Assembly (NCBI GenBank): GCA_016932965.1
Contig: JAFGBW010000024.1
Coordinates: 1-17,086 of the forward strand
DNA from: Candidatus Auribacterota bacterium
GTDB lineage: Bacteria > Auribacterota > JAFGBW01
Reading direction: 5' to 3'
DNA length: 17,086 nt
The notes beneath the pieces are model-generated. The model saw only the letters and a program-made list of their open reading frames with translations. It was not told where the DNA came from and made no database searches. Both the position numbers and the translations under genes were made by a program. This document shows positions 811 to 15,537 of this stretch, one piece after another; the first letter of the stretch is position 1; each line of letters starts with the position of its first letter.

Positions 811-3800
811 ATATCGCCGCTCCCAATCTCGAAAATAAACCTTCTGATGATGCTCCGAAGAAAAAGACATTCAGCGAAGAGAAGTTACGCGCCTTTATTT
901 TAAAAAAGATCAGGACCATCTTTATTCCCTCCTCTGTTTACAGGTTGCAGTTGAATCGGGAGTTTACCCTGAAAAAGGCCTCGGTGCTCCTATCCTATTT
1001 GAAGAAGCTGGGAATTCATGCTGTATACTGTTCTCCTTTTTTTCAGGCTGCTCCGGGCAGCATGCATGGTTACAACGTTACGGACCCGAATCAGATTAAT
1101 AAAGAGCTGGGCTCATGGGAGGATTATCTGCATTTCTGTGATAAATTGTCCCAGAGTTCAATGGGGCAGATCGCTGATATCGTTCCCAATCATATGGGGA
1201 TAACGGGCAACAACAATCCCTGGTGGCAGGACGTTCTGGAAAACGGTCAGAGCTCGTTATATGCTGATTATTTCGATGTCAATTGGAATCCGGTGAAACA
1301 GGAGCTGGCCCATAAGGTTCTGATTCCGGTTTTAGGAGATTTTTACGGCAAGGTTCTCGAAAATCAGGAACTGTTTCTCCATTATCAAAAAGGCGGTTTT
1401 TATCTGTCCTATTATGACCATCAATTCCCAGTCGATCCCAAAACGTATCCTGATATTCTGGATGATCCGGACAATTATCTTGTCAAGAATATGGGAGACA
1501 AGAATCCTGATCTGATTGAATTATTGAGCATCATCACCGCATTTAAAAATCTGCCTTCTTCCCATGAAATCCTTCAGGAGAAAAAAATGGAGCGCAGCAG
1601 GGAAAAGGAAATCGCGAAACAGAGACTTGATCAGCTGGTGGGACGCTGTGAAGATATTCGGGTGTTCATTGACGGCAGGTTACTTATTTATAACGGCAAT
1701 AAAAATGATCTTAAAAGTTTTGATGCGATGGATCAGCTGTTAAACCAGCAGCCCTACCGTCTCGCTTATTGGTCCGTCGCTTTTCAGGAGATCAATTACA
1801 GGCGTTTTTTTGATATCAATGACCTGGCCGCCCTCCGTATTGAGGATGAAAAAGTCTTCCTCCATCATCATGAGCTGCTTTTCAGACTGATCCAGGAGGG
1901 AAAAATCAATGGATTGCGCATTGATCATCCTGACGGGCTGTATGATCCGTCCTTATATTTTAAGAGACTTCAGAGGGAATATCTTCTGCAGATGCTCATG
2001 AAGGAATTTGAAGAGCAATTGAGGCCGGAAGGGGATTCCTCCTCTGCCAGGGAAGAGATCGACAAGGATTCGGTGAGACAGGTTTTGGACGGACTGTTCA
2101 CCAATGAATTCTTATCTTCACCGCCTTTTTATATCGTAGCAGAAAAAATTCTGGACCGGAATGAGACTATGCCGGGAAATTGGAGTATTCACGGGACAGT
2201 GGGTTACGATTACATGAACGCTCTGAACGGTCTTTTTGTCAAGCGGTGCAATGAAAAGAGGTTTGCCGATCTTTACGAGAATTTTATCGGTCATGCCATT
2301 GATTACGAAGGCCTGGTTTACGACAAGAAGAATTATTTCTGCCAGCTGTATATGGCTAGTGAGATCAATGAACTGGGACACAGGCTGGATTTTATTTCTG
2401 AAACAAACAGAAATTACAGGGATTTCACCAGGAACGATCTGACCACGGCAATCAGGGAGGTGATCGCGGGATTTCCCGTGTACAGGACGTATGTATCATC
2501 GGATGGACTCAAGATTTCAGAAAGGGATGAAAAAAATATTCATGCGGCTATTGCCAGGGCCAGAAACAGGACGCCGGCATTGCATTCCGCGGTCTATGAT
2601 TTTCTGGAAAATGCCCTTTTATTGCGTTTGAATATCGAGCCGGGAAGCGAAGAAATGAAATTATATAAGGATTTTTTGCTGCGTTTTCAGCAGCTTTCAG
2701 GGCCGATCATGGCTAAAGGCCTCGAGGACACTTCGTTTTATGTTTACAACAGATTGATTTCTTTGAATGAGGTCGGAGGAGATCCGTTTTATTTTGGATA
2801 CACGGTGCCGGATTTTCATGAGCATAATTTGTCGCGGAACAGGCGCTGGCCCTGCAGCATGCTGTCCAGTTCCACTCATGATACCAAGCGGAGCGAAGAT
2901 GTCAGGATGAGGATCAATGTGCTGAGCGAGATTCCGGATGAATGGGAACAGAAAATCAAAGAATGGGCCGATATCAACCAAAAGTATAAGACTTTCATCA
3001 ATGAAGTTGCCGAACCCCGTCGCAACACGGAATATTTTATTTACCAGACGCTGGTCGGGATCTGGCCGGACAATCCTGTTGGATCTGAAACAGGCAGGCT
3101 TTTTATAAGACGGATATGGCAGTATGTATTGAAATCCATCCGCGAAGCGAAAATCTATACGAATTGGCTCAAGCCGAACGAGGAATATGAAAAGGCAGTC
3201 GAATCCTTTGTCGCATCCATTTTGTCGGAAGGTGAGGAAAACGGGTTTTTGAAAAGTTTCGCTGCCTTTCAGGAGAGAGTATCCTTTTTAGGCAAGCTCA
3301 ACAGTCTTTCTGCGACGCTGATTAAAATGGCTTCGCCGGGCGTGGTGGATATTTACCAGGGGAATGAAACCTGGAATTATTGTCTGGTGGACCCGGATAA
3401 CAGAAAACCGGTTGATTATAAAGGACGGAAGGATCTTCTATCCGGGATCAGAAAAAAGGATGATGAAAACAGGGTAGACCAGATGAGTTTTGGCGCCGTG
3501 ACGCCGGATAACATGAAACACTTAAAATTTTATTATACGATGAAAGGCCTGTTGTTCAGACGAAAGCATAAAGATTTGTTTGTGGGAGGGGAATACATAC
3601 CCGTAGATGTCAAAGGGCCTAAGCGGGAGAATATCATTGCGTTCATCCGCAAGTACGGAAAAGACTTGGTTCTTCTTGCGGCATTGAGATTTTTTTCAGA
3701 GTTGCTCCCGGATGAAAGTGATATCATCAATTCCCAGATCCTTTCAGGTACCGAGCTTATCTGGCCAAAAAATATTGAATCCAAACACGGACTCCGTGAT

Positions 3801-3917
3801 ATCATCCGGGAAAATATCATCACCACGGAATCAAAGGGCGAGGATACGGTTATCAGGGCCTCTGATTTGTTTCAGAGCACTTGCGTCTGCATGTTGACTG
3901 CTGATGTCGAAGAATGA
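807..3917 (+). CDS. treY: Maltooligosyl trehalose synthase TreY
   Basis: A GH13 enzyme that isomerises the reducing-end alpha-1,4 bond of maltooligosaccharides to an alpha,alpha-1,1 bond, giving maltooligosyltrehalose, which TreZ then cleaves to trehalose. The 1036-residue product starts the catalytic barrel near residue 42 (SSVYRLQL). It contains APGSMHGY (82-89), DIVPNHMG (124-131), LRIDHPDGL with nucleophile Asp373, IVAEKIL with acid/base Glu446, and HDTKRSED (691-698) with the transition-state Asp692. AKGLEDTSFY before it and SPGVVDIYQGNE after it are TreY-specific. It is longer than the roughly 700-850 residues common in the family, with a polar N-terminal extension (1-40) and long inter-motif loops. 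The 4 bp overlap with glgX supports the start. treZ is not downstream; it may be upstream of the window. Confidence 0.95.
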   Translation: MNIAAPNLENKPSDDAPKKKTFSEEKLRAFILKKIRTIFIPSSVYRLQLNREFTLKKASVLLSYLKKLGIHAVYCSPFFQAAPGSMHGYNVTDPNQINKELGSWEDYLHFCDKLSQSSMGQIADIVPNHMGITGNNNPWWQDVLENGQSSLYADYFDVNWNPVKQELAHKVLIPVLGDFYGKVLENQELFLHYQKGGFYLSYYDHQFPVDPKTYPDILDDPDNYLVKNMGDKNPDLIELLSIITAFKNLPSSHEILQEKKMERSREKEIAKQRLDQLVGRCEDIRVFIDGRLLIYNGNKNDLKSFDAMDQLLNQQPYRLAYWSVAFQEINYRRFFDINDLAALRIEDEKVFLHHHELLFRLIQEGKINGLRIDHPDGLYDPSLYFKRLQREYLLQMLMKEFEEQLRPEGDSSSAREEIDKDSVRQVLDGLFTNEFLSSPPFYIVAEKILDRNETMPGNWSIHGTVGYDYMNALNGLFVKRCNEKRFADLYENFIGHAIDYEGLVYDKKNYFCQLYMASEINELGHRLDFISETNRNYRDFTRNDLTTAIREVIAGFPVYRTYVSSDGLKISERDEKNIHAAIARARNRTPALHSAVYDFLENALLLRLNIEPGSEEMKLYKDFLLRFQQLSGPIMAKGLEDTSFYVYNRLISLNEVGGDPFYFGYTVPDFHEHNLSRNRRWPCSMLSSSTHDTKRSEDVRMRINVLSEIPDEWEQKIKEWADINQKYKTFINEVAEPRRNTEYFIYQTLVGIWPDNPVGSETGRLFIRRIWQYVLKSIREAKIYTNWLKPNEEYEKAVESFVASILSEGEENGFLKSFAAFQERVSFLGKLNSLSATLIKMASPGVVDIYQGNETWNYCLVDPDNRKPVDYKGRKDLLSGIRKKDDENRVDQMSFGAVTPDNMKHLKFYYTMKGLLFRRKHKDLFVGGEYIPVDVKGPKRENIIAFIRKYGKDLVLLAALRFFSELLPDESDIINSQILSGTELIWPKNIESKHGLRDIIRENIITTESKGEDTVIRASDLFQSTCVCMLTADVEE

Positions 3918-3963
3918 CGCAGATACGGATATTTAATCCGATAAAGCATCAGCGTCAATTTTT
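3915..3963 (+). terminator. Hairpin terminator after treY
   Basis: TGACGC (3915-3920, starting at the treY stop codon) pairs with GCGTCA (3952-3957). Inside it, CGGAT and ATCCG (3927-3931 / 3936-3940) make a second stem. A short T run (3959-3963) follows. This is a plausible intrinsic terminator for glgX-treY; the mismatched middle and the short T run lower confidence. Confidence 0.55.
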
Positions 3964-4008
3964 CCGTGGCAAAGGCTGACTGCGATGGAAGTATCTGAAA
4001 ATAAATTT

Positions 4009-4177
4009 ACCACGGAGGGAATCGGGAAAAGTTTTGAGTTGTGAGTGTTGAGTTATGAGTTAACAAATGAAATTTCATTTAACTCAAAGTTGGACTACGG
4101 ACATCCTGTCCTTGCCTTTCAGTCAGGCAAGCTGTCCCTCTTCGACATCCCGTCTTGAGTCGTGTCCTTCGTGGTGG
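4009..4177. repeat. ACCACGAAG-type inverted repeat pair, copy 1
   Basis: The left arm ACCACGGAGGGA (4009-4020) is a degenerate inverse of the right arm CGTGTCCTTCGTGGTGG (4161-4177). Inside the left arm lies TTGAGTTATGAGTTA (4048-4062), found again exactly at 11602-11616 in copy 3. AAATGAAATTTCATTT (4065-4080) is a perfect 16 bp palindrome. There is no open reading frame of note in this stretch. Confidence 0.5.
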
Positions 4178-4191
4178 AATAAAGATAGGTA

Positions 4192-4225
4192 ACATTAGCT
4201 TCACAAGAGTGGGGCTAACGTTGAA
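4192..4225. other. Imperfect hairpin in intergenic DNA
   Basis: TTAGC and GCTAA flanked by AAC and GTT form a stem with one mismatch and a loop of about 14 bases. No T run follows, so it does not look like an intrinsic terminator. A short TA microsatellite lies just after it, near 4246-4258. Function unknown. Confidence 0.3.
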
Positions 4226-4296
4226 CCAAATCCGCCCCCCGTACACATATATATATAGTCTGTCGTTTGCAAGCGTTGGTTATCCTTTTATTTTTT

Positions 4297-4559
4297 AACC
4301 ACGAAAAACACTAAAAGCACGAAAGTTTTTCTCAGCTTTCGCTTCGAAAAATGATAAGAATGAAATCATTTTTTTTAGAGCTTTTTATTTTATTATTTTT
4401 AAAATTTGAATCACCTAAAAATCAATTATGTCTTCTGAAAAATTTAATGTTCATTTCTAAAATTAATCCTAAAAGCACGAAATTATTCTCTAGGATCAAT
4501 AATTCTTAAACATGATTTAAAAAACAATCTTTTTCGTGTCTTTCGTGCATTTCGTGGTT
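4297..4559. repeat. ACCACGAA-type inverted repeat pair, copy 2
   Basis: The left arm at 4297-4325 begins AACCACGAAAAACACTAAAA. The right arm at 4529-4559 ends in TTTCGTGGTT and is its approximate inverse complement. A partial third unit, TAAAAGCACGAAA, occurs at 4470-4482 and repeats 4312-4324 exactly. The 200 bases between the arms are very AT-rich and hold no supported gene. Confidence 0.65.
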
Positions 4560-4606
4560 TCAAATTTTTATATTCATATGGATAACAATGAAATTATATG
4601 AATGTT

Positions 4607-4635
4607 ATGCCATATTCAGTGGCTTTATATAAGAG
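4607..4635 (+). promoter_or_regulatory. Leader motif shared with the purine permease gene
   Basis: ATGCCATATTCAGTGGCTT followed by TATATAAGAG closely matches 11765-11797 upstream of the permease, and both lie shortly downstream of a repeat right arm. GCCA and TGGC can pair. The motif could be a promoter with an unfamiliar sigma factor, an operator, or a further module of the repeat. Its function is inferred only from recurrence. Confidence 0.35.
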
Positions 4636-4677
4636 ACGTTGAGCCGATCATCCTTTCAATCCGCCGGCATGGTCTTT

Positions 4678-4710
4678 GACAATTGACTTTTTTCCATTGT
4701 CTGCTATAGC
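4678..4710 (+). promoter_or_regulatory. Candidate promoter overlapping an inverted repeat, upstream of the DHp operon
   Basis: TTGACT (4683-4688) and TATAGC (4705-4710) are spaced 16 bases apart, resembling a sigma-70-type promoter. GACAAT (4678-4683) and ATTGTC (4696-4701) form an inverted repeat around the -35 box, which could be an operator. A second small hairpin, CTCTA / TAGAG, lies at 4721-4737. The -10 match is only moderate. Confidence 0.35.
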
Positions 4711-4790
4711 CTGAGAGCTGCTCTATGCATCCTAGAGATTGGATACAGAAATAAATTTATTATCGTTCGGAATAATGATAAGACTCGGGT

Positions 4791-6200
4791 ATGAACGGAT
4801 ATCTTGATTTCATCATACAGCATGCGTTTTTTTGTGTTCAACTGCTGACCGGAGTTTGCTGGCTGATCATCTATTTGAGTCTGGAGAAGGCGGATAGCTC
4901 CTATCCATTTTCAGAGAGAAGTTTTCTATTTTTAGGTCTGCTTTTCATTTTTCTTTCCTTTTATTCCGATCTGACCCCCTTGATCACCATTGTATCGGCG
5001 GTCGGTAGTTTGATGCTTATATTTCATGTGGCAAGCTGGTTTCAACTCGTTTGGTTTCGGCTTGTTGCTTCTGTTATTTTGTTCCCCTTTCTGCTGGCAG
5101 GACTGATTGTTTTTTTTCATTACGCCATTCTTTATTATTTTCAAAAGACAGGGGCCGAGTTGGTTTTTCTTTCTTTTACACTGGCCATGCTGATCAATCC
5201 TCTTCTGTTATTTTTCTCTTTTTGCTGGAATCGTATTGAGAAGAAGAAAGGATACATCATCCCGTCCGAGACGGAGATTTTTAAAATTTTTGATTTCAAA
5301 AGGATTGATTTCTTCGGTGAAGATTTTCTCCTGCAGTGGGTACGGATTCTTTCTTCGCATTTCAAGGATTTTCATTGGTTGGCCTTGGGTGTTTTAAACC
5401 AGGATGATCTGTCGTTTGAAGTCTTTGATCCTGCGGATCCGTCTGATTCCAGCCGTCCCGGTCAACATTTTTCTTTTCCTCCAAAACTGGCTGCCGGGGT
5501 TTCTTCCATGAACAAACCGCTGACGAAGAAAGGATGGTCTGGCAAAGGGGCCGGGTTCATAAAGGAATGGATGGATTTTTTTAAACAATGCACGGGCCTG
5601 AATGAATGTGATCTGGTGATGCCTTTGAGGACGAAAAATAACGTTTCATGTTTTCTTTTTCTTAAAATGTCGGAAGGACATTCAGACGCCCCGTCTCAAG
5701 ACGAATTGGATCGTCTGAATCGGGTTTTTCAATTATTGCTGAACATGCTTGAACAGTTGGGGGATGAAAAAGATATCCGTGAGATGTTTACTCAAACCAG
5801 GGATAAAAAAGGGAGTTATGATCTGATGGCGAAAAAGATAGAGGAGGTCAATGAGGCATTGAGCGATCTTCAGAAAAAACAGCAGAAATTGATTGCCACT
5901 GAACGTTGGATATCCCTGTCTCAGATCACAGTCACATTGAATCATGAGATCAATAATCCTTTGACTCACATTTTAGGGATGTCGCAGATTTTAAAGGCGA
6001 AAATGAACAAAGGCCATGAAATCAGAAAAGAAACATTCCTCAAGGATATTGAATCCATTTTTCATCAATGTCAGCGGATCTCCGAAATCATTAAAAGCCT
6101 GAGACGGATTTCCACTCCTGTAACCGAGAAGTATCTTCCTGAAATTGAGATGATCAAGCTGGATATCCCTCATGGAGAGATGAACAGTGAAAATGGATAA
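4791..6200 (+). CDS. Membrane protein with GAF-like region and histidine-kinase DHp segment, no ATPase domain
   Basis: A 469-residue protein with about five hydrophobic helices (about 7-30, 43-58, 62-81, 91-118, 123-145). A soluble region at about 175-320 could be GAF-like. A polar helix, probably coiled coil, follows at 343-370, then a DHp segment (371-442). The H-box reads LNHEINNPLTHILG, with His385 as the expected phospho-acceptor. The chain stops 27 residues after the DHp, so the N, G1 and G2 boxes of the catalytic ATPase are absent; the next reading frame does not supply them. It could be a phosphotransfer protein in the manner of Spo0B/ChpT, a partner of a kinase encoded elsewhere, or a non-phosphorylating sensor. 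ATG 4791 is the first start after an in-frame stop at 4779; no good ribosome site precedes it. The next gene overlaps by 14 bp. Confidence 0.85.
   Translation: MNGYLDFIIQHAFFCVQLLTGVCWLIIYLSLEKADSSYPFSERSFLFLGLLFIFLSFYSDLTPLITIVSAVGSLMLIFHVASWFQLVWFRLVASVILFPFLLAGLIVFFHYAILYYFQKTGAELVFLSFTLAMLINPLLLFFSFCWNRIEKKKGYIIPSETEIFKIFDFKRIDFFGEDFLLQWVRILSSHFKDFHWLALGVLNQDDLSFEVFDPADPSDSSRPGQHFSFPPKLAAGVSSMNKPLTKKGWSGKGAGFIKEWMDFFKQCTGLNECDLVMPLRTKNNVSCFLFLKMSEGHSDAPSQDELDRLNRVFQLLLNMLEQLGDEKDIREMFTQTRDKKGSYDLMAKKIEEVNEALSDLQKKQQKLIATERWISLSQITVTLNHEINNPLTHILGMSQILKAKMNKGHEIRKETFLKDIESIFHQCQRISEIIKSLRRISTPVTEKYLPEIEMIKLDIPHGEMNSENG
6174..6189 (+). promoter_or_regulatory. Ribosome binding site supporting a GTG start
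   Basis: GGAGAGA (6174-6180) lies six bases before GTG 6187 and twelve before ATG 6193. The spacing favours GTG as the start of the second DHp gene, inside the end of the first gene. Confidence 0.5.
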
Positions 6201-7245
6201 TAAAACACGATGGATCCTGCTTTTAATGTTGTTGCTGTTGGGGCTCCTTCTTCCTTTGACTGTCATGCCGGGGATTTCGTTTTTTCAGATGATTGGATTT
6301 GTTGTATTGTTTTCGCTGTCGTTGTTCATCTTTTCCTTTATAATCCAGTGGGGTATGAGGGTGATTTCCCGTTTCATTTATCTATCTGTTCATGATTTTT
6401 TATTCCGTCTGAAGATCTGTCGTGAACATATGGTTTCTATTTTACATATGGAGGAATTCTTTTTCTTTTTATCAGGCTTGTGGCATGAATTTTTTAACGC
6501 ATCGGATTTTTTTATCCTCATTCTGAATCATAGTGAAAAATGGTACCGGATCGTTTCAAGCAAAGAGGATCATTTTTACCGCCTGGAAAGTCAGACCGAT
6601 CAATTGCTGGATTATCTTCATGCGGTCTTGCCTGGAAAGGAAGCCCACTGGAAGAGGAAAAAAAGATACGATGATATTTTAAGGATATTGAATCAAAGTT
6701 TATGCGTGAATCATCTGCTTGAGTTTTCAGGTAGGGACGTGATTTATGTTTTGGGTTTTTATTCCCCCAAGTTGATGAAAAACGAGGAAATCAGCCGGAT
6801 ACGTGAAGAAGGGCCTTTTTTGGCATTTTGTCTGGATCAGATTCTTTATTTTGAGCATCACAAGAACTGTATCCTGCATCATCTTGGAATCCAGAATGGT
6901 CAAAACTGGAATATCCAGGAATTGAAAAATCAGAATCTGATTCTGCAATACGCTTATGACAGGATTAAAAAACTTCAGGATGAATTGCTGATCAAGGAAA
7001 AAAAGGCCGCGGTCATCAAATTCGCTATTTCCCTGGACGATGAAATTTCCAATCCGCTGACCAACCTGATCATGTCAGTGCAGTATCATCTTGAAAAATA
7101 TAGAACGGATCATGATCCTCATGACAGTCATCATCATGAACGGCTTTTAGATATCATCATCGAGCAGTCCTTGAGAATCAAGAGCATCCTCGATCAATTG
7201 AGGGAAGTCACGGAAGGGCATGTGAGAAATACAACAGCAGGGTAG
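6187..7245 (+). CDS. Second DHp-like membrane protein, phospho-acceptor His replaced by Asp, no ATPase domain
   Basis: A 352-residue protein with the same plan as its upstream neighbour. It has two hydrophobic segments near the N-terminus (about 9-28 and 30-54), a soluble region with no motif I recognise (70-235), a polar helix (245-275) and a DHp-like helical pair (275-342). The H-box equivalent reads ISLDDEISNPLTNLI. Asp285 (codon GAT, 7039-7041) stands where the neighbour has His385 (CAT), a one-base codon difference, while the following Glu and NPLT are kept. The protein ends ten residues after the second helix; no ATP-binding boxes follow. It cannot be a conventional histidine kinase and is better described as a degenerate paralogue that may heterodimerise with the first protein. 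The overlap indicates translational coupling. The GTG start is preferred from the ribosome site; ATG 6193 would remove two residues. Confidence 0.82.
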   Translation: MKMDNKTRWILLLMLLLLGLLLPLTVMPGISFFQMIGFVVLFSLSLFIFSFIIQWGMRVISRFIYLSVHDFLFRLKICREHMVSILHMEEFFFFLSGLWHEFFNASDFFILILNHSEKWYRIVSSKEDHFYRLESQTDQLLDYLHAVLPGKEAHWKRKKRYDDILRILNQSLCVNHLLEFSGRDVIYVLGFYSPKLMKNEEISRIREEGPFLAFCLDQILYFEHHKNCILHHLGIQNGQNWNIQELKNQNLILQYAYDRIKKLQDELLIKEKKAAVIKFAISLDDEISNPLTNLIMSVQYHLEKYRTDHDPHDSHHHERLLDIIIEQSLRIKSILDQLREVTEGHVRNTTAG

Positions 7246-13247: not shown

Positions 13248-13439
13248 TTACTGGGTTCTTAAAACGATATGGAATTTTCTGTTTTCATTGCGGCTGAAAT
13301 GCGCCTCCACAACATCATCGATGTTCTGCCTGAGATCCTCCAGCGTGTTTCCGCGGACAATAAACTGTTCTGAGAGGCATTTGGCAATATAACTGTTGTC
13401 GGGGTCCTGGGACACTTGAAAGATCAGTTTGATTTTCAT
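13248..13439 (-). CDS. Orphan HicB-like small protein
   Basis: A 63-residue protein. SYIAKCLSEQFIVRGNTLEDLRQNIDDVVEAHF (residues 16-48) matches the single alpha/beta HicB-like fold seen in type II antitoxins and in many solitary small proteins. HicB normally blocks the HicA mRNA interferase and represses its own promoter. No HicA-sized frame adjoins it: the purine permease ends 43 bases downstream, and upstream is a 346-base gap. No DNA-binding tail follows the HicB-like core, so it may be a short form. A good promoter lies upstream (13490-13517); the ribosome site is weak. It could be a solitary regulator, or the remnant of a toxin-antitoxin pair. Confidence 0.72.
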   Translation of the reverse strand: MKIKLIFQVSQDPDNSYIAKCLSEQFIVRGNTLEDLRQNIDDVVEAHFSRNENRKFHIVLRTQ

Positions 13440-15464: not shown

Positions 15465-15537
15465 GCGCCCATGGCCTAATGGATAGGGCACCTGACTACG
15501 AATCAGGCGGTTGCAGGTTCGAATCCTGCTGGGCGCG
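15465..15537 (+). tRNA. tRNA-Arg (anticodon ACG)
   Basis: A complete cloverleaf. Acceptor stem GCGCCCA (15465-15471) pairs with TGGGCGC (15530-15536), with discriminator G15537. The D arm contains GCCTAATGGATAGGGC. The anticodon stem CCTGA / TCAGG holds loop CTACGAA with anticodon ACG at 15498-15500. The T arm is GCAGG-TTCGAAT-CCTGC. The CCA end is not encoded (TTC follows). A34 is normally deaminated to inosine by TadA, letting it read CGU, CGC and CGA. The tRNA ends 25 bases before yicC and probably shares its transcript. Confidence 0.97.

Follow-up and report, generated by a model that had tools for sequence, protein, structure and literature searches.

Two overlapping genes encode membrane proteins, P1 and P2, which both end in a DHp hairpin, the first with and the second without a histidine at the acceptor site, and neither of which carries an ATPase domain. 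Neither of them is thus able to autophosphorylate. The locus is best explained, with about an even chance of this being right, as a sensor pair handling phosphate rather than as a kinase, in which P1 would be a transfer or phosphatase station and P2 its non-phosphorylatable partner. The window analyzed here is an entire contig of 17,086 bases belonging to a draft genome of 3.1 Mb (300 contigs, 93% complete).

P1 and P2 share a common plan (Table 1), in which the membrane helices precede a domain that is GAF in P1 and GAF-like in P2, then a coiled coil, and finally the DHp hairpin. Their likeness does not extend beyond coiled coil and DHp (24% over 87 residues). HisKA is recognized by Pfam in P1 above the cut-off (residues 377-441, 2.6e-8). 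In P2 (residues 281-339, 2e-5), it is borderline, with 25.0 bits for a cut-off of 26.9, and reaches 27.1 bits, just above the cut-off, in the genome scan. The original prediction of two overlapping DHp-only membrane proteins is therefore borne out, as HisKA is found in both and the ORF check of the window places both genes on the plus strand with the proposed boundaries, the ATG of P2 lying upstream of the P1 stop. A search for HATPase_c, which had been proposed along with it, detects none in P1 or P2 even at an E-value of 10 (Pfam), so that, of the domains expected of a sensor histidine kinase, HATPase_c follows the DHp in neither protein. None of the 45 places of the genome matched by HATPase_c in a genome-wide scan falls on the window contig, so that no ATPase gene is present in the window. 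The HPt domain PF01627 is likewise not listed by Pfam for P1 or P2 at E-values up to 10.

Table 1. Features of the P1-P2 tandem, numbered from the first base of the window.
Feature	Position	Strand	Details and basis
P1 (membrane-GAF-coiled coil-DHp, His385, without ATPase domain)	4791..6200	+	469 aa; Pfam, AF2
P1 membrane region, about five helices (residues 2-153)	4791..5249	+	AF2 secondary structure, hydropathy
P1 GAF domain (residues ~174-323)	5310..5759	+	VIA-align Z 10-12 to many GAF structures; 3o5y Z 11.0
P1 coiled coil and DHp hairpin (residues 326-438)	5766..6104	+	Pfam, AF2; block pLDDT mostly 86-96
P1 His385 codon (CAT)	5943..5945	+
P1 Asn389 codon	5955..5957	+
P1 conserved tail (residues 445-455), signature of the DHp-only family	6123..6155	+	Alignment, AF2 beta-hairpin
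P1 stop codon	6198..6200	+
P1 end/P2 start overlap	6193..6200	+	8 nt (ATG 6193); 14 nt with GTG 6187
P2 (His-less DHp-only partner)	6193..7245	+	350 aa from ATG, 352 from GTG 6187; Pfam, AF2
P2 two membrane helices (residues 3-58)	6199..6366	+	Hydropathy, AF2
P2 soluble alpha/beta domain, GAF-like by layout, low confidence	6448..6810	+	AF2 block pLDDT mostly <55
P2 coiled coil and DHp hairpin (residues 208-348)	6814..7236	+	Pfam, AF2; block pLDDT >80 from about residue 231
P2 Asp283 codon (GAT) at the His position	7039..7041	+
P2 Asn287 codon	7051..7053	+

The acceptor-site motifs read LNHEINNPL in P1 and LDDEISNPL in P2, with the CAT and GAT codons announced. The aspartate had been numbered 285, which is correct from the GTG start; from the ATG, it is Asp283. 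Both proteins had also been described as stopping right after the DHp. This is the case for P2, in the AlphaFold2 model of which no hairpin comes after the DHp, whereas P1 continues for about 30 residues beyond the second DHp helix, including a predicted beta-hairpin (strands 445-449 and 452-455, block pLDDT 76-81). The sequence of this tail, TPVTEKYLPEIEMIKLD, lines up with the tails of other family members and, judged by its position, might represent what is left of the N-terminal part of an ATPase domain. The models of P1 and P2 were built from shallow alignments (20 and 17 rows, respectively) and, with an overall pTM as low as 0.36 for P1 and 0.32 for P2, they do not fix the arrangement of the domains. 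The P2 DHp matches a LOV-kinase DHp within 1.5-2.2 A over about 90 columns (Foldseek), the VIA-align listing for P1 is filled with GAF matches and has no bearing on the tail, and the profile matches in the PDB reach the DHp only, none of them covering both DHp and tail.

The same tandem is found in G001, a genome from a different family of the same order, where P0003 and P0004 follow each other on one strand of contig C36, about 100 nt apart. P0003 (573 aa, SLNHEINNPLTHI) displays His at the acceptor position and P0004 (602 aa, SLDSEISNPLTNI) displays Ser, and Pfam detects no HATPase in either at E-values up to 1. P1 is 30% identical to P0003 overall, with 45% over the coiled coil, DHp, and tail versus 23-25% elsewhere. 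For P2 and P0004, the overall identity of 27% covers 35% in the DHp region versus 18% in the soluble domain, so that P2 gives no impression of gene decay. Around the acceptor site, Asp282, Glu284, Asn287, and Pro288 are common to P2 and P0004. Both window proteins have fewer membrane helices than their respective orthologues.

The originally predicted DHp-only tandem, in which one member is phosphorylatable and the other is not, is thus real; it is kept in G001 and recurs in a TPR pair of the genome G239. The survey proposed for the same tandem with its His/Asp pattern recovered the tandem in G001, but there with His/Ser. The idea of Asp as the characteristic residue of the acceptor site consequently fails: with Asp in the window and Ser in G001, the conserved feature of P2 is the loss of His and not an Asp acceptor, and Asp as a new phospho-acceptor was dropped as a conserved feature. 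The asymmetric His/His-less pair is probably older than the split of the two families. The order is represented by three genomes and the phylum by 44. No second tandem was found in the third genome of the order, which is 77% complete, and the other matches read in the 44 genomes are full kinases, except for one REC-DHp protein in G001. The only relative among named genome contigs is a full kinase encoded by an alphaproteobacterial MAG and, on plasmids, ordinary kinases and cache-domain proteins make up most of the annotated matches. G001 also includes, at L117 3066-4959, a REC-DHp-only gene followed by an overlapping gene for a REC-DHp-ATPase kinase, possibly a two-gene relay.

A truncation due to a sequencing error, or a pair of decaying genes, could be suspected in a draft assembly of 300 contigs, and homologues combining the same N-terminus with an ATPase domain had been named as the sign of it. 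None was found among the 44 genomes of the phylum. Moreover, the proteins end alike in G001 and across the wider family, where the stop comes a few residues after a conserved tail, and the contig is free of HATPase. This explanation, which can practically be dismissed, was ruled out by the G001 tandem together with the family survey.

In HisKA kinases, a Thr or Asn at H+4 is required for phosphatase activity and an acidic residue at H+1 for kinase activity (PMC3510030). The Thr/Asn expected of a HisKA phosphatase is present as Asn389 in P1, as Asn287 in P2, and as Asn in both orthologues. As the His, the acidic H+1 residue, and the H+4 Asn are all kept, P1 could in principle accept or pass on phosphate, or act on the phosphate of a receiver. 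P1 is a membrane-anchored GAF-DHp protein, the DHp of which would dimerize into a four-helix bundle. His385 may swap a phosphoryl group with receiver domains, in a phosphorelay or by reverse transfer; alternatively, Asn389 may promote the loss of phosphate from the receiver. The membrane and GAF inputs would control this chemistry. P2 would be the co-encoded partner, probably a paralogue, in which the acceptor His has gone while the DHp and the H+4 Asn are retained, and it may cooperate with P1 in one pathway, as a partner with a regulatory or phosphatase function that is gated by its sensor. The phosphatase activity of HK853 is lowered by the H260A substitution (PMC5727384), and the His-less P2 may therefore be a weak phosphatase or none at all. 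The wider family speaks for such a role, as it joins the DHp to REC, GAF, PAS, or TPR domains, the architecture one would expect if transfer stations were gated by sensors or receivers. Against it, besides the HK853 result, stand the absence of any receiver or kinase gene next to either tandem and the differences between P1 and P2 at H+8 and H+11, which argue against shared docking.

These two positions determine regulator specificity (PMC2991266). They are occupied by His and Gly in P1 and by Asn and Met/Leu in P2, each orthologue keeping its own state, so that P1 and P2 may dock different partners. Accordingly, P1 and P2 might form separate homodimers serving different regulators, with the tandem providing co-expression only, and the lack of the tail in P2 fits this arrangement, which is credible although the odds are somewhat against it. 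Indeed, the overlap of the genes, their order kept in two families, and the fewer membrane helices in both proteins rather suggest that the two evolved jointly. At the other extreme, the two proteins could be obligate partners in a membrane heterodimer, where only one His can be phosphorylated. This proposal is a tentative and rather doubtful one; it supposes that the same design arose independently in G239. The pair would then be a half-sited DHp bundle without ATPase domain, the His-less half of which would gate transfer or dephosphorylation, and it would take its place in a widespread family of kinase-less DHp sensors in which a C-terminal beta-hairpin replaces the ATPase domain.

The second His/His-less tandem, that of G239, belongs to a phylum other than that of the window and consists of TPR-DHp proteins encoded in the same orientation. 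At L205 3392-6652 (minus), the gene of the His protein comes first (5084-6652), directly followed by that of a Lys protein (3392-5080), and the two share their residues at five positions of helix 1 that face the regulator. The related genome G370 includes about a dozen DHp-only genes, several of them with TPR repeats. Such His/His-less tandems are a natural system in which to ask whether DHp dimers must have two acceptors, and also whether DHp domains can be stand-alone, sensor-gated phosphatases or phosphotransferases.

P1 is a member of a widespread and apparently unstudied family of bacterial DHp-only proteins. A profile (A4) built on P1 and four similar proteins, from the DHp through the C-terminal end, was searched over 384 genomes, and its full-length matches include many ORFs of about 120-570 aa. 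They end in a DHp followed by about 20 residues that close in a motif approximating Y-x5-M-[IL]-D-[LI], after which, as a rule, comes the stop. The N-terminal parts, read in 60-odd loci, are REC (the commonest), GAF, PAS, TPR, or membrane regions. P1, itself one of the sources of the profile, matches the whole of it with 148 bits, leaving 11 residues. The tail motif is absent from the full kinases compared, as well as from P2 and P0004. NCBIfam showed no model for the tail family, the matches of the proteins tested being far below cut-off, save for generic PAS domains. With a broader profile (A7), matches running through the tail were obtained in 58 of 386 genomes, a figure that may be an undercount as 12 candidates per genome were scored; this genome set largely overlaps that of A4, and part of the A7 matches were read to the stop codon. 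Up to a dozen copies occur in one genome. Annotation easily takes such proteins for histidine kinases, although they cannot be kinases on their own; with this spread, a whole level of two-component signalling may be misinterpreted. Minimal members, about 120 aa long, have the tail but no sensor domain (L196 5048-5407 and L195 4992-5366, both minus). At L187 4207-5731 (minus), two REC-DHp-only genes overlap in tandem, each of them with the His, and apparent arginine biosynthesis genes lie beside them.

The DHp itself also separates the family from kinases. Scored against DHp-only and kinase profiles, P1 and P0003 reach 85.3/71.1 and 93.5/82.0 bits, respectively, and P2 and P0004, both devoid of the tail, reach 55.3/45.5 and 62.3/54.9. 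With the tail removed, leave-one-out scoring correctly places 97% of the DHp-only and 93% of the kinase DHp cores. In a tree of 114 DHp cores, the label changes 3 times versus a mean of 33 after shuffling, with none of 500 shuffles as low; P1 groups with P0003 (95/96) and P2 with P0004 (100/99). Tree and profile scores are to be read with the facts that members were picked by a profile including the tail, that the 81 columns leave many forks open, and that a dozen copies belong to one genome.

The acceptor His is present in 63 of 68 DHp-only proteins versus all 43 full kinases, the exceptions having Asp (P2, L188, and L200), Ser (P0004), or Lys (L205). These five proteins, P2 with its missing acceptor among them, could be taken to mean that the DHp is a mere dimerization scaffold for GAF and membrane sensors, with no phosphate chemistry; the retention of His in the other members, within a largely intact motif, makes this improbable. 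Gln at H+4 is more frequent in DHp-only proteins (20/68) than in kinases (2/43), with a Fisher p of 0.0012 that is indicative only, the sequences being related, whereas the difference for a non-acidic H+1 (10/68 versus 2/43, p 0.12) is not significant.

About ten of some sixty DHp-only loci adjoin a full histidine kinase or stand one gene from it. At L139 7723-9755 (minus) and L209 3266-5381 (plus), which come from two different families, a full histidine kinase gene is immediately followed by a GAF-DHp-only gene, among flagellar genes. Both kinases have Gln or Ala after their own His instead of Asp/Glu, and the DHp-only neighbor has His-Glu. They are possibly complementary pairs in which the kinase phosphorylates its DHp-only partner. 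The two loci suggest phosphorylation in trans as the main alternative chemistry for P1: in such a split kinase, the ATPase domain of another kinase, joined to P1 in a mixed dimer or complex, would phosphorylate the P1 DHp, and P1 would give specificity and sensing. The acidic H+1 missing from these kinases is needed for kinase activity elsewhere (PMC3510030), which favors this scheme. It is nevertheless unlikely for the tandem, as neither the window pair nor the G001 pair adjoins a kinase and most of the sampled DHp-only loci have none within about 5 kb.

Indeed, no receiver or kinase gene is seen beside either tandem. The neighbors are trehalose-type glycosidase, Nudix, and FolD genes in the window, and, in G001, with names assigned by eye, an acetyltransferase gene upstream and V-type ATPase genes downstream; the two neighborhoods have no gene in common and include no regulator. 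A promoter and terminator scan around P1-P2 returned a number of sites not above chance.

Several known systems resemble parts of the pair. DivL, a conserved protein in which Tyr replaces the DHp His, has, like P2, a non-His residue at the acceptor site, but it retains its ATPase domain and is not known to be part of a DHp-only tandem. RetS and GacS are two different DHp proteins in contact, as proposed for P1 and P2, although both retain ATPase domains and they are not known to be encoded in tandem; PDB 7n0e, an entry for this precedent, is among the weak Foldseek matches. For EnvZ, phosphatase activity is reported, by the title of Zhu et al. 2000, without the kinase catalytic domain, but that fragment is engineered while P1 and P2 are natural proteins. 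ChpT, Spo0B, and PhyT are kinase-derived DHp-type phosphotransferases without kinase activity, among which ChpT and PhyT retain degenerate ATPase domains (PMC3433190, PMC5898713). Spo0B and ChpT have the DHp four-helix bundle and the phosphotransfer His that are predicted for P1 and, like it, lack autokinase activity. However, ChpT has an atypical ATPase fold after the DHp, whereas P1 and P2 have none and carry sensor domains instead. PhyT of Sphingomonas is, as proposed for the pair, a kinase-derived, membrane-anchored phosphotransferase, earlier proposed to be a phosphatase, but it has an HRxxN-type DHp, a degenerate ATPase domain, and no His-less partner.

Kinase-less HisKA proteins are already recognized as a class. 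In P2CS, HisKA proteins without HATPase are filed as phosphotransfer proteins (PMC2716373). A 2018 archaeal census describes 'nonenzymatic HK-like proteins' of PAS/GAF-HisKA and REC-(PAS/GAF)n-HisKA types, for which a phosphatase role is suggested, the REC-bearing class being given as experimentally unstudied (PMC5847659). P1 fits the class outlined in both sources, with a sensor domain and a C-terminal HisKA with His and no HATPase (PMC5847659, PMC2716373), and P2 shares its features except for the conserved His. The census concerns archaeal proteins, and neither a tail nor a His/His-less tandem is mentioned in the accessible part of the census (PMC5847659). No literature on a bacterial tail-bearing DHp-only family, its predicted hairpin, or His/His-less tandems was found among open-licence papers, and the tail family and the tandems appear, tentatively, to be new.

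Elsewhere in the window, a 63-aa ORF at 13248-13439 (minus) looks by eye like a HicB-type antitoxin, with no Pfam match at 1e-5. A tRNA-Arg (acg) is located at 15465-15537, and the ORF called for a YicC-like gene begins inside it (15479), so that the true start of this gene is probably downstream.
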